A program made the position numbers and the translations under genes. From IMG/VR virus record IMGVR_UViG_3300031951_000495, positions 1-38,432 of that record: a stretch of DNA of 38,432 nt, one strand, 5' to 3'. Under the pieces are notes generated by a model. That model was not told the DNA's origin. It did not search any database and saw nothing but the letters and a program-made list of their open reading frames with translations. Each line of letters starts with the position of its first letter. Within the stretch, counting starts at the first letter, position 1. Positions 9,181 to 29,974 of this stretch are shown here, in pieces. The stretch is from a virus.

Positions 9181-9790
9181 GCACGACAAGACCCTTCCGT
9201 TACTAGAGCAGATATTCGAATCTTCCAGGGTTCCAGACGAACTATGGATTATGTGCGAGGGGATTGACGACGCTGATGTTGCTATCAATTCCCTCAAGAT
9301 ACTCGGCAAGGAGTCGAATGGGGTCGTGGTCCTGCCAACCGACTTGACAGCCCTCGGGCAATATGCTATAATTCCTTATTCCCACAAGATCAACTGGGTT
9401 CTTAATCGGACTGGCGCAGATGCCATTGTATACGTTGACAACGGATCGATGCCATCGAGGGAAAAGTATCAGGTCATGATCGAGGCTCTTGAGAACAACC
9501 CGTCGTGGGGAGCCGTATACTGCTCTCAGACAAGGAGCGGGATCGATAGTCGGACTGAATGGGCTGATCGAGTTGTTGACAATGCATATGCAGTTCTGAA
9601 TTACACTCAGGTAATGCACAGGAAAACAGACGACCGATGGACGACGAATATGGCTCACGCAAATCCAGACGTTGCAGATGCAATGTTCTGGCAGAGCCTA
9701 CACAAGTCTATTGGAAAATTCTATCCAGTTGATGGTGAAAGAGTGCATGATTGGCACCACATCCCATCACACGCAGCACAGGGTATTTAA
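9146..9790 (+). CDS. Putative GT-A type glycosyltransferase
   Basis: A 214-aa protein from GTG 9146, preceded by GGGAGG; an internal ATG at 9170 is a weaker choice. The opening KLAAIATMYGRHDKTLPLLEQ and the following DELWIMCEG segment match the first Rossmann-like half of family-2 glycosyltransferases. YVDNGSMPS near residues 98-106 is the likely metal/nucleotide-sugar site in place of DxD. It probably uses the nucleotide-activated product of the upstream cytidylyltransferase. It overlaps that gene by 35 bases. A full-consensus promoter (9344-9372) lies within its coding sequence. Confidence 0.6.
   Translation: MKLAAIATMYGRHDKTLPLLEQIFESSRVPDELWIMCEGIDDADVAINSLKILGKESNGVVVLPTDLTALGQYAIIPYSHKINWVLNRTGADAIVYVDNGSMPSREKYQVMIEALENNPSWGAVYCSQTRSGIDSRTEWADRVVDNAYAVLNYTQVMHRKTDDRWTTNMAHANPDVADAMFWQSLHKSIGKFYPVDGERVHDWHHIPSHAAQGI
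9344..9372 (+). promoter_or_regulatory. Consensus sigma70 promoter inside the glycosyltransferase gene
   Basis: TTGACA at 9344-9349, a spacer of exactly 17 bases and TATAAT at 9367-9372, with an extended TG-C just before the -10. The spacer begins with the small dyad GCCC-TC-GGGC (9350-9359). This is the best match to consensus in the window and points toward the terminase-portal block. Transcription would start near 9379, 412 bases before the next gene. It may drive late packaging and head genes. Confidence 0.7.
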
Positions 9791-10102
9791 ATGCCAAAGA
9801 CAGCAGCATGGCAACGAAAAGAAGGTCAGAGCGCCAAGGGCGGCTTGAACGCCAAAGGTCGCGCATCGTATAAGGCGCAGACTGGCGGAACGCTCAAGGC
9901 TCCAGTCAAGCGGGGAGATAACCCGCGTCGCGCATCGTTCCTTGCGCGCATGGGCGGAATGCCAGGACCAGAGCGTGATGAGAAGGGTCGACCAACCCGA
10001 CTACTCCTAAGCCTCCAAGCATGGGGCGCAAGCAGCAAGGCTGATGCCAAGCGCAAGGCTGCTGCAATTAGCGCACGCAACAAGGGGACTCGTGGTCGGT
10101 AA
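9791..10102 (+). CDS. DUF6321-like small basic phage protein
   Basis: A 103-aa basic protein that begins MPKTAAWQRKEGQSAKGGLN. It contains DNPRRASFLARMGGMPGP (residues 43-60) and a KPTRLLLSL-like strand (PTRLLLSLQAWG), which I recognise from a conserved phage family (DUF6321). The function of the family is unknown; it typically lies near terminase or head genes, as here. The arginine- and lysine-rich sequence suggests nucleic-acid binding. It starts one base after the glycosyltransferase stop and overlaps the terminase start by 11 bases. Confidence 0.75.
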   Translation: MPKTAAWQRKEGQSAKGGLNAKGRASYKAQTGGTLKAPVKRGDNPRRASFLARMGGMPGPERDEKGRPTRLLLSLQAWGASSKADAKRKAAAISARNKGTRGR

Positions 10103-11588
10103 TGAAACTGCACGAGATCTGGCTCTCGGTCGCACTGACATCGAGTTCTTTGCTCGGCGCTGGCTCAATATCAGTGGGCACAAAGGGCAAGTGGAATGGT
10201 GGAGAGCCTGTGCGGAACGTGATGACTCGGGGTATCGACCAAAATACCTTACCACGGTTGTTTCCGCGGGAAATCGTGCGGGGAAAACGATGGCGATGGC
10301 GATCCTCTGCCTTCACCACGCCTTGTACAAAATGGGCGTTCAGCAGCCAAAAACTGACGATCCCTCAGACGCCCGAAGATGGGCAAACATCCCGTACGAG
10401 TGGTACCACGTAGGAATCCAGCAAGAAACTGCTGAGTTGGTCCACCGAGAGATCAGCACGATCCTCAACGGCAATCATCAGGCACAGAAGGGCAACGGAT
10501 GCCCGCTAACAAAAGAACTCGGGAACATTGCCACCATCGACAAGAAGTATCGTGGTGAGTATCTTTGGATCAAGTTCCACCCGATTGTTGGGGGTGCAAG
10601 CATCCACTTCCGAACTACGCAGGAGAAAGCGAAGGCGCTTCTCGGGAAGGACATGAATGGGATCTCGTTCGACGAGGCGGCATTCGAGCCCCACTTGGTG
10701 GAGATCTACCAAGAGGTCCTCAACCTCCGACGCCTCTCCACGGGTGGTCCGCTCCACTTCATCGGCACGCCGACGGAAGGCATCGGAGACTACTCGGACC
10801 TCTGGGAAATGGGAAATCCCGAAAACCCAGGACGGGATCCACAGTTTATCTCCTTTCGGCTTTCAACCCGCGAAAATGTTGGATACGGACTCACAAGAGA
10901 AAACTTCGACTCCATTGTCCGACAGCAAGCCGAATACCTCGTCCCGCAGAACGTCGACGGATACTTCATCGAAGCGAGAGACTCATACTTCTCAGCCCAG
11001 TCTGTCGACGGAGCCTTTGATCCTGACGCTCCTTCAGAGTGTCCGCCACAAAGGGGACATCGGTATGTCCAGGGATGTGACCCAGGTATTTCTTCTGACT
11101 CAACATGGTCGGTCGTACTCGATTACACAGACCGATCCAGAATCCGAGCAGTCCGAGCACGACGACGTATTGGTAAGCAAACCATTCCGTCTGTGGTGAA
11201 CATGGTCCGAGAGAACGCCCTGCTCTACCAGCAGGATGGAGCGTTCTGCACGACCATCGTGGATGAGACTGGGCTTGGCGGTCGACTCTTTCGACAAGAG
11301 TTCAACGTCATCAAGCCACTCAGGGGGTACGACTTCGGCGGAACAAAGTCGAAGAAGTTGGTGCTCCTTGCAACACTAAAGTCGATGCTTGACAAGAAGC
11401 AGTTGGTGATCCCGAGAGGACAGCCGTGGGATGACCTTCGGAGGCAATTGCTGTCGTACAAGTTGAACGATAAAAAGTTGGAGACAGATGCAGTCATGGC
11501 TCTCGCGCTTGCCGTATGGCACGCCGCAAGGAACCCAGACCAGCCAGTAAAGGATCCAGTATTTTCCTATTATGGAGGCATTGATTAA
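10092..11588 (+). CDS. terL: Terminase large subunit
   Basis: A 498-aa packaging motor from GTG 10092, chosen because AAGGGG lies five bases upstream and it starts just inside the previous gene; earlier in-frame starts would be buried in that gene. ATPase domain: Walker A GNRAGKT at residues 60-66, Walker B with the D-E pair at 194-195 (ISFDEA), and a GTP-like coupling loop (IGTPTEG) near 224-230. Nuclease domain: acidic residues D330 (GCDPGIS), D391 (IVDETG) and D466 (ETDAVM). It translocates DNA into the prohead at the portal and cuts the concatemer. It overlaps the portal gene by TAATG. Confidence 0.93.
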   Translation: MVGNETARDLALGRTDIEFFARRWLNISGHKGQVEWWRACAERDDSGYRPKYLTTVVSAGNRAGKTMAMAILCLHHALYKMGVQQPKTDDPSDARRWANIPYEWYHVGIQQETAELVHREISTILNGNHQAQKGNGCPLTKELGNIATIDKKYRGEYLWIKFHPIVGGASIHFRTTQEKAKALLGKDMNGISFDEAAFEPHLVEIYQEVLNLRRLSTGGPLHFIGTPTEGIGDYSDLWEMGNPENPGRDPQFISFRLSTRENVGYGLTRENFDSIVRQQAEYLVPQNVDGYFIEARDSYFSAQSVDGAFDPDAPSECPPQRGHRYVQGCDPGISSDSTWSVVLDYTDRSRIRAVRARRRIGKQTIPSVVNMVRENALLYQQDGAFCTTIVDETGLGGRLFRQEFNVIKPLRGYDFGGTKSKKLVLLATLKSMLDKKQLVIPRGQPWDDLRRQLLSYKLNDKKLETDAVMALALAVWHAARNPDQPVKDPVFSYYGGID

Positions 11589-22049: not shown

Positions 22050-22075
22050 CCCCCGATGTCGCTTGACATCGGGGG
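22050..22075. terminator. Strong dyad after capsid gene (terminator or operator)
   Basis: CCCCCGATGTC (22050-22060) and GACATCGGGGG (22065-22075) form a perfect 11-bp stem with loop GCTT. No T-run follows, so intrinsic termination would be weak. The -35 box of the next promoter (22063-22068) lies inside the loop and right arm. The element may therefore be an operator for a dimeric repressor, or combine mRNA 3' protection of the capsid message with promoter control. Confidence 0.6.
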
Positions 22076-22091
22076 GAACACCCTCTATGCT
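22063..22091 (+). promoter_or_regulatory. Promoter of the glycosyltransferase moron
   Basis: TTGACA at 22063-22068, a 17-base spacer and TATGCT at 22086-22091. Transcription would start near 22098, giving a leader of about 30 bases with GAGGAG before the ATG at 22128. The -35 is embedded in the 26-bp dyad at 22050-22075, so repressor or hairpin control is plausible. Spacing and position make this one of the more credible promoters of the window. Confidence 0.75.
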
Positions 22092-26651: not shown

Positions 26652-27788
26652 ATGTCGCTAGAAACCAAGATTGCTGCGCTCCGAGCGCGAGGGCTATCGT
26701 TCTCGGAAATCGGCACAGTCCTAGGGATTACCAAGGACAAGGCACAGAAGCGATACATGAGACTTGACAAGGCAGAAATCGATGATTATACTTTGGAAAG
26801 TCTTTCCAACGAAAGAATTCTTCCTAAGGAAGTAGATGATTCTAACTATAAGAATCTAAATACTTCCTATGGAAGTAGGGTTCCACATCTCATTCAATCA
26901 GCAGATCCAGTGACCATTGACTACATCCCTCGGGTTGGAGACAGCCCTTCCTCCTCCCGAGGGAACCTCGTCGTCTGCGCTGGGGACTTTCAGTTCCCGT
27001 TCGAGGACGGTGACGTCTTTGCTTCGTTCCTAACATTCCTCGCCGCAGAAAAGCCAGACCGCATCGTGCTCACTGGCGACATCCTTGACCTTACGTCGGT
27101 CTCGTCGTACGACAAGGACCCACGCCTTGGGCTGCCAGTGCAGGACGAGATTGCGTACGCACATCGACGGCTTGCCGAGATCCGTGCAGCCGCTGGTCGA
27201 GAGGCGCAGATCTTCTTTCTCTACGGGAATCACGAAGCGCGGTTCTCCAAGTGGCTCGCAAAGCGGGCTCCAGAACTGGTCGGTCTGACCGACGCAAATG
27301 GCAACGAGGTCCTTTCGCTGGCGACGTTGCTTCGGTTCGACCATCTCAACATCATCCCGTGCATCGACGAAAAGACGATCTACACGGGACCAGAGAGCCT
27401 TCGCTCGTACTACAAGATCACGGAAGATCTTATCGCAACGCACGGCACATACTCCCGCACGACAGGTGGTGGATCGTCAATCGTCCCCATTGCTGACGCA
27501 GCGGGAGTTTCTGTTGTCGGCGGTCACGACCATTCGCAGGGGATCTCGTTCAGGACTATCGGCGGGTTTGCCGATCTCCCAGAGAAGCGCCTTGCCGCAA
27601 TCTCCACGGGCATGATGTGCATGCGAACGGATCTGGGCTACCTTGCCCAGCATCAGGTCAGCCGCTGGTCGGCTGGGTTCGCGGTCATCGAACTGTGGGG
27701 CGACCGCGCAGGTGAATGGCAGCCAGACTTCGCCTCATGGACGGGGTCGGAGATCGTCTGGCGTGGCAAGCGATACGAACCGAAGTGA
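26652..27788 (+). CDS. HTH-metallophosphoesterase
   Basis: A 378-aa two-domain protein. Residues ~5-38 are a helix-turn-helix (LRARGLSFSEIGTVLGITKD). Residues ~105-375 are a calcineurin-like phosphoesterase with GDFQ (D112), GDILD (D143), GNHE (N193-H194), ATHG (H264) and GHDH (H292, H294), a complete two-metal site. It should hydrolyse phosphodiesters or phosphomonoesters, perhaps DNA ends or a cyclic nucleotide. The linker at residues ~42-95 is coded by an AT-rich stretch holding a promoter and four dyads, so the gene may contain its own or a downstream control region. Confidence 0.8.
   Translation: MSLETKIAALRARGLSFSEIGTVLGITKDKAQKRYMRLDKAEIDDYTLESLSNERILPKEVDDSNYKNLNTSYGSRVPHLIQSADPVTIDYIPRVGDSPSSSRGNLVVCAGDFQFPFEDGDVFASFLTFLAAEKPDRIVLTGDILDLTSVSSYDKDPRLGLPVQDEIAYAHRRLAEIRAAAGREAQIFFLYGNHEARFSKWLAKRAPELVGLTDANGNEVLSLATLLRFDHLNIIPCIDEKTIYTGPESLRSYYKITEDLIATHGTYSRTTGGGSSIVPIADAAGVSVVGGHDHSQGISFRTIGGFADLPEKRLAAISTGMMCMRTDLGYLAQHQVSRWSAGFAVIELWGDRAGEWQPDFASWTGSEIVWRGKRYEPK
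26764..26792 (+). promoter_or_regulatory. Intragenic promoter in the phosphoesterase gene
   Basis: TTGACA at 26764-26769, a 17-base spacer and TATACT at 26787-26792, one base off the -10 consensus. The start would fall near 26799, inside the 17-bp dyad at 26793-26809. It could drive the HAD/SDR/epimerase genes that follow, or an N-terminally shortened phosphoesterase. It lies in a locally AT-rich island within GC-richer coding sequence. Confidence 0.65.
26793..26809. promoter_or_regulatory. Operator-like dyad at the intragenic promoter
   Basis: TTGGAAAG-T-CTTTCCAA, an 8+1+8 perfect dyad centred at 26801. It begins immediately after the -10 box and covers the expected start of transcription, the usual place for a repressor site. 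Coding constraint alone would not produce such symmetry. The binding protein is unknown; the HTH domain of the same gene is a candidate for autoregulation. Confidence 0.6.
26820..26832. repeat. Dyad repeat 1 (CTTCCTAAGGAAG)
   Basis: CTTCC-TAA-GGAAG followed by TAG. The 16-base string CTTCCTAwGGAAGTAG occurs here (from 26820) and again from 26863, differing at one base. The centres are 43 bp apart, about four helical turns, so two dimers could bind on one DNA face. The site lies downstream of the intragenic promoter. Confidence 0.6.
26838..26856. repeat. Inverted repeat between the two dyads
   Basis: GATTCT (26838-26843) and AGAATC (26851-26856) are perfect inverted arms with a 7-base AT-rich loop. 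It sits midway between the two CTTCC/GGAAG dyads. It may be a third protein site of another type or part of a larger RNA fold. Support is weaker than for the flanking repeats. Confidence 0.4.
26861..26877. repeat. Dyad repeat 2 (TACTTCCTATGGAAGTA)
   Basis: TACTTCC-TAT-GGAAGTA, a perfect 7+3+7 dyad centred at 26869. It shares 15 of 16 bases with the dyad from 26820. Together with the dyad at 26793 it makes a promoter-proximal array of operator-like sites in about 85 bp of coding DNA. Confidence 0.6.
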
Positions 27789-29933: not shown

Positions 29934-29962
29934 TTGACGGCGAGGGACTTTTCTGCTAGGCT
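29934..29962 (+). promoter_or_regulatory. Promoter of the recombination operon
   Basis: TTGACG at 29934-29939, a 17-base spacer and TAGGCT at 29957-29962. The expected start is at or very close to the ATG at 29969, so the transcript would be leaderless. A 14-bp dyad follows at 29961-29974. The promoter opens the 40-base gap between the epimerase and the nuclease gene and would drive the early genes to 34152. Confidence 0.7.
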
Positions 29963-29974
29963 CCATGTATGGAG
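29961..29974. promoter_or_regulatory. Operator-like dyad over the start codon
   Basis: CTCCAT-GT-ATGGAG, a perfect 6+2+6 dyad that overlaps the last bases of the -10, the expected transcription start and the ATG of the nuclease gene (29969). This position suits repressor control, and on RNA it would put the start codon in a hairpin only if transcription began upstream. Its TCC...GGA arms resemble the CTTCC/GGAAG dyads at 26820 and 26863. Confidence 0.5.

Follow-up and report, generated by a model that had tools for sequence, protein, structure and literature searches.

The pac sites of phages P22 and P1 lie inside the small-terminase or pacA genes. To our knowledge, most sigma70 promoters located within genes are not known to be conserved. 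In lambdoid phages, the origin of replication is located in mid-gene O and is made up of iterons and an AT-rich tract (PMC7466680), and a promoter, pO, is found at the start of gene O in phage lambda (PMC3985674). In the phage gene described here, which encodes an HTH domain joined to a metallophosphoesterase (MPE), one piece of DNA appears, judging from its sequence, to be gene and switch at once.

The HTH-MPE gene and its linker

The window, that is, the whole stretch of 38,432 bp analysed here, is the contig of an uncultured tailed phage, taken from a virus record. It carries terminase, portal, capsid and tail genes, followed by sugar and DNA-metabolism genes on the + strand. No near phage DNA relative of the window was found in INPHARED, and a search of bacterial genomes for the MPE yielded just two weak matches, so no host was assigned. 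The features discussed are the following:

10044-11588: terminase large subunit, far from the linker element
22063, within 22050-22091: conserved promoter in the intergenic gap behind the capsid gene
26652-27788, + strand: HTH-MPE gene carrying the element, an open reading frame of 378 aa; HTH at residues 3-42, disordered linker (predicted) at residues 43-75, calcineurin-like MPE from about residue 100
26764-26769, + strand: putative -35 hexamer TTGACA, in the codons of L38-D39-K40
26787-26792, + strand: putative -10 hexamer TATACT, in codons Y46-T47, with a spacer of 17 bp from the -35
26793-26809, + strand: dyad 0, TTGGAAAGTCTTTCCAA, 8+1+8, across the predicted start
26793-26882, + strand: strongest synonymous-site constraint in the HTH-MPE gene, by codon identity
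26799, + strand: predicted transcription start, an A 7 nt past the -10
26820-26835, + strand: dyad 1, CTTCCTAAGGAAGTAG, centre 26826
26838-26856, + strand: minor inverted repeat GATTCTAACTATAAGAATC, 6-bp arms and 7-nt loop, between dyads 1 and 2
26861-26878, + strand: dyad 2, TACTTCCTATGGAAGTAG; as CTTCCTATGGAAGTAG at 26863-26878, centre 26869
29934-29971: conserved intergenic promoter before the Cas4-like gene

The MPE domain of the product is assigned to Metallophos PF00149 and phrog_221. In the AlphaFold model of the protein, obtained with 32 relatives as input, helices at residues 3-12, 17-24 and 28-49 are followed by the MPE fold, and pLDDT falls below 50 only at residues 43-75; the promoter and dyads coincide almost exactly with this segment. 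A sequence search of the PDB gave no match to the protein, and a fold search returned generic MPE folds only (Vps29, LpxH and PolD DP1).

The preliminary description had reported a TTGACA-17-TATACT promoter followed by an 8+1+8 dyad over the expected start, two near-identical dyads with centres 43 bp apart and an inverted repeat between these two, all in an AT-rich stretch coding for the linker between the HTH and the phosphoesterase. Each of these features was found again at the positions listed above, and the GC content of the stretch is about 0.34, versus about 0.55 in its flanks. The putative promoter matches the sigma70 consensus at 11 of 12 positions, and no other site in the scanned region scores better. 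The separation of its hexamers falls within the 16–18 bp of sigma70-type promoters, and the purine at the predicted start lies within the 6–8 nt expected past the -10. CTTCC-N3-GGAAG sites occur in the whole 38-kb window at dyads 1 and 2 only.

Conservation of the element in group 1

A search for related loci in IMG/VR gave about 50 close relatives, forming three sets on the basis of their N-terminus and linker. Group 1 comprises seven distinct versions: the window (W), which matches L002 at 100%, L003, L043, L005, L004, L006/L008 and L052. The promoter scores 11–12 of 12 at the same codon offset in six of the seven, and 9 of 12 in L043; the spacer between the hexamers is 17 bp in all seven. 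The -35 is TTGACA in six versions and TTGACG in L043, and the -10 is TATACT, TACAAT, TATAAT or, in L043, TACACT. The six residues separating the hexamers vary freely (inside the spacer, AEIDD, IARDL, NNSSI, QLKDS, MNQVN), and only D39 and Y46, the codons of which make up parts of the hexamers, are invariant around it. All seven versions have an A seven bases past the -10 and a GGAA-n-TTCC dyad beginning 2–3 bp past it, with an imperfect copy (TTGC) in L004. Dyad 0 reads GGAAAGTCTTTCC in W and GGAAGTCTTCC in L006; these forms differ by one base absent per arm and lie in different reading frames, with symmetry kept in both. The arms of dyad 1 are matched at 4–6 of 6 positions, and the centres of dyads 1 and 2 are 43 bp apart in every version (166 and 209 in L006, for example), some copies of CTTCC-N3-GGAAG being imperfect. 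The left half of dyad 2, TACTTCCT, is unchanged in all group 1 homologues, and the minor inverted repeat is kept in L003, the other homologues lacking the same form. Thus, as expected of an operator array, symmetric sites are conserved in fixed register with the promoter, with imperfect symmetry in L005 and L004.

Two further conserved promoters of the TTGACA-17/18-TATACT type lie in intergenic gaps of group 1 phages, at 22063 and at 29934-29971, the latter being weaker in W, L003 and L043. The linker promoter is located between these two, has the same orientation and, by its sequence, fits the phage's own promoter class. At 22050-22091, the -35 TTGACA is contained in the right arm of a strong hairpin, CCCCCGATGTC-n4-GACATCGGGGGG; hairpin and promoter are kept in L043 and L052, and at least the right arm is kept in G005. 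An ATG is found six bases past the -10 of the 29934 promoter, the transcript of which is therefore probably leaderless, and a dyad, CTCCATGTATGGAG, spans the predicted start of this promoter in W. Full 12/12 matches to the sigma70 consensus are also present inside coding regions, at 9344-9372 (+ strand) and 19201-19173 (- strand); the second is antisense to a 1204-aa open reading frame and has a degraded version in G006.

Selection on the nucleotides of the linker

A comparison of homologues at synonymous sites, as proposed in the preliminary description, indicates that the linkers do not vary freely at the nucleotide level. Codon identity at matching residues in group 1 is 0.83 in the linker, versus 0.50 in the rest of the gene. 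It reaches 0.91 in the best run of 28 codons (26793-26876), and runs outside the linker have a mean of 0.50 (sd 0.07) and a best value of 0.68. When the close relative L003 is left out, codon identity in the linker is 0.835, about six sd above a null based on the AT-rich codon usage of the linker itself (0.593, sd 0.038, maximum of 2000 draws 0.727). The linker peptide is the least conserved part of the HTH-MPE protein in group 1, and the high codon identity of so poorly conserved a peptide implies selection on the nucleotides. Synonymous conservation has a second, weaker peak (0.67–0.77) at 27336-27434 in the group 1 MPE gene.

Synonymous redraws were also made, with codons taken from the phage's own usage. 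None of 3000 redraws reached the observed dyad content (21 paired bases observed, mean 0.7 in the redraws), and about 1% reached an 11/12 promoter. Dyad content exceeds that of all 3000 redraws in W, L003 and L006, and the corresponding p-values are 0.001–0.002 in L043 and L004; the dyads of L005 are no better than chance. As the homologues are related, the resampling p-values of single homologues cannot be multiplied. Every homologue with a Leu at the corresponding position of dyad 2 encodes it by TTA, a rare codon (1% usage). The element is not due to chance, and the linker very probably contains an element defined by its nucleotides. Of the earlier proposal of a control region written into the coding sequence, the part concerning selection on the nucleotides is therefore strongly supported, and the part concerning a promoter with operators is the role that the sequence suggests.

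An overlapping gene is unlikely because the other frames are closed by stop codons: the other two + frames and two of the three - frames are closed in all seven group 1 versions, and the remaining - frame across the linker is open only in L043 and L005. Several other candidates were rejected. An internal in-frame start for a phosphoesterase-only product would be the GTG at V87, which is missing in L052 and has no Shine-Dalgarno sequence before it. A small open reading frame could begin at the ATG at 26835, which has a good Shine-Dalgarno sequence; this ATG is lost in L003, L043, L005 and L006. A scan for intrinsic terminators (stem and U-run) at the dyads found none on the + strand and two weak candidates on the - strand, where no antisense unit is known. 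A dispersed mobile palindrome was dismissed, as these phages contain no other copies of it; the 16-mer has 52 matches in IMG/VR, seven of them in the HTH-MPE family, and this total is estimated to be about that expected by chance for a collection of that size.

Groups 2 and 3

Group 2 (L009-L026 and fragments) has the same HTH and the same gene order as group 1: GT, tail genes, a holin-like gene, MPE, RmlD, epimerase, Cas4-like and Erf genes. Its linker peptide has the form PLPHTPSPEGD...VKKDLTPPTPP, and synonymous identity is 0.81–1.00 in the linker, versus about 0.4–0.75 over the rest of the gene. Despite the common gene order, the linker promoter is not present in group 2, and the element found there is unrelated to that of group 1. 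It consists of two G-quadruplex motifs on the - (template) strand, present in 11 of the 11 loci tested: G4-A-G5-TRT-G5-A-G5 (with small variants) and G7-TA(A)-G7. An example is as follows:

L009, 5126-5149 and 5215-5231, template strand of the MPE linker: the two G-quadruplex motifs

No further G-quadruplex motifs were found in the 7–11 kb around group 2 linkers, and the whole contig G001 has one additional, weaker match. Both motifs were recovered in at most 2 of 5000 synonymous redraws. Group 2 linkers contain C5TC5 / GAGGGGGA arrays of variable copy number, and the element is rich in G and C, without an AT-rich stretch.

Six group 2 contigs (L033-L036, L038 and L039) stop within the C7 runs in the MPE linker or just past them. 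Both sides of the break are found on the L033 contig (L206), which indicates a circular or permuted genome broken at this place and fits a sequencing barrier at the C7 runs. A cos site, that is, a physical genome end, in the group 2 linker was rejected because the contigs break at positions tens of bases apart and one contig contains both sides of a break; more probably, sequencing or assembly was interrupted at the C7 runs.

Group 3 differs in its N-terminal domains and in its gene neighbourhood, and its linkers show no constraint of this kind (synonymous identity 0.38–0.70). In the group 3 loci L027-L051, which belong to other phages, the same phosphoesterase domain is joined to unrelated N-terminal domains; homologous MPEs with different N-terminal domains imply that domain exchange took place at the linker.

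Possible functions of the linker element

The best reading of the sequence, held with somewhat better than even confidence, is that of a sigma70-type promoter that lies, together with an array of operators, inside the coding linker. The promoter would start transcription near 26799 and read toward the phosphoesterase half and the downstream sugar genes, and it probably fires. The dyads would be palindromic protein-binding sites, one across the start and two downstream in fixed register, an assignment with a little less than an even chance of being correct. A dimeric DNA-binding protein, encoded by the phage or the host, would occupy the start-site dyad and the pair spaced 43 bp apart, and would repress the internal promoter or set its timing. 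A distance of 43 bp corresponds to roughly four turns of the helix, which places dyads 1 and 2 on the same face of the DNA. The unstructured linker may tolerate whatever residues the DNA element dictates. No internal start codon is conserved after the promoter in group 1; a new product, if there is one, would therefore be an RNA or that of a gene further downstream. The genome has no operator copies elsewhere, and thus no regulon.

The preliminary description had suggested that the HTH encoded by the gene itself may read the dyads. This HTH is an attractive candidate because nucleotide constraint is seen only in groups 1 and 2, both of which have this HTH type. However, the recognition helix is near-identical in the two groups (ITKDxAQKRY in group 1 and LTKDQAQKRY in group 2), whereas the linker DNA has no common motif and the sites do not co-vary with the DNA-binding domain between the groups. 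Possession of nearly the same recognition helix alongside unrelated DNA counts against simple self-recognition.

The dyads could instead work in the mRNA, as a structured RNA element controlling translation, processing or stability; they would then form local hairpins, or dyads 1 and 2 would pair with each other in a single long stem of 15 bp, which is perfect in L006. Such an element agrees with the folding z-scores of W, L003, L006 and L052 (-3.5 to -4.8), with the prediction of the long stem in these same four versions and with the pairing of dyads 1 and 2 at 12–15 of 15 positions in most homologues. It nevertheless seems unlikely: the z-score does not discriminate, since any DNA palindrome folds as RNA, and that of L005 is -0.3; the arms carry single changes without compensation (GTAAGT in L005 and L052, GAAAG in L005), and the window has no Rfam match at gathering thresholds. 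Moreover, dyad 0 straddles the predicted start, and would therefore be neither whole in the new transcript nor a hairpin of it. A replication origin inside an initiator gene, in the manner of lambda ori and gene O, would have the HTH bind the dyads, the AT-rich stretch melt and the promoter provide transcriptional activation or a primer. The architecture is similar, with a DNA-binding N-terminus, repeats in the linker DNA and an AT-rich stretch, and constraint occurs only together with this HTH type. This analogy is improbable, though, given that the group 2 element is rich in G and C and has no AT-rich stretch, GC skew makes no turn at 26.8 kb, the DnaB-like helicase of the window lies about 8 kb from the element on the - strand, and the recognition helix is common to both groups but the DNA motif is not; we know of no initiator precedent for the MPE half.

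Two explanations without a function for the DNA element are both very improbable. The dyads might follow from the protein sequence or from codon bias, with palindromic codons happening to be used for the linker peptides, and L043 and L005 each do lack one part of the signal; this explanation is already contradicted by the failure of synonymous redraws to reproduce the dyads, by the margin of about six sd over the linker-specific codon null and by the good conservation of the DNA where the peptide is poorly conserved. The linker might also gather small palindromic repeats or recombine often, conservation then reflecting the recent spread of a segment rather than function. The arrays of variable copy number in group 2, and the exchange at the linker indicated by the different N-terminal domains of homologous MPEs, would fit this. 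Yet recent spread would homogenize the peptide too, and the peptide is the variable part; outside the linker, these phages contain no member of either motif family except one C-rich match in G007, and the group 1 motif occurs at about chance level in IMG/VR outside the HTH-MPE family. There is, lastly, a small chance that the HTH-MPE linker is a slot reserved for DNA elements that act in cis, unrelated in sequence between sister clades and doing the same job in both, such as marking where an HTH-guided phosphoesterase acts on its own DNA to begin replication or some other DNA transaction.

The internal promoter with operators thus remains the preferred reading, on an evidence base of seven related group 1 versions, one with a weak promoter (L043) and another with weak dyads (L005). 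In this phage gene, DNA-level information outranks protein sequence: the peptide drifts, and the hexamers, spacing and palindromes stay. The sister clade fills the same linker slot with a different nucleotide-level element. The slot raises the question whether disordered linkers offer free room for control elements, and opens dual-coding DNA and the role of the HTH-metallophosphoesterase to direct testing with short synthetic DNA.

Comparison with known systems

The MPEs of cluster A mycobacteriophages (the Bxb1 gp47 RDF and A10ZJ24 gp48; PMC12287305), compared by their MPE domain, have about 24–27% identity to the protein described here, a distant homology only. The pac sites of P22 and P1, cis sites within the gene of the protein that reads them, resemble the linker element, which may likewise be read by its own gene product; in the window, the large terminase gene is far off, and nothing at the linker points to packaging. 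The origin of lambda and lambdoid phages in gene O is similar in its repeated cis sites, located in a gene whose product binds DNA through its N-terminal part, and the AT-rich stretch and nearby promoter of lambda ori have counterparts in the group 1 linker, the AT-rich stretch being absent from group 2. However, the repeated sites of lambda ori are four 19-bp iterons and its initiator is proven, whereas group 1 has three dyads, a promoter inside the linker, a C-terminal metallophosphoesterase domain and a hypothetical role in replication. Intragenic sigma70 promoters share near-consensus -35 and -10 hexamers inside coding sequence with the putative linker promoter, which differs from most of them in that its hexamers and spacing are kept while the peptide changes, and in its ordered dyads.
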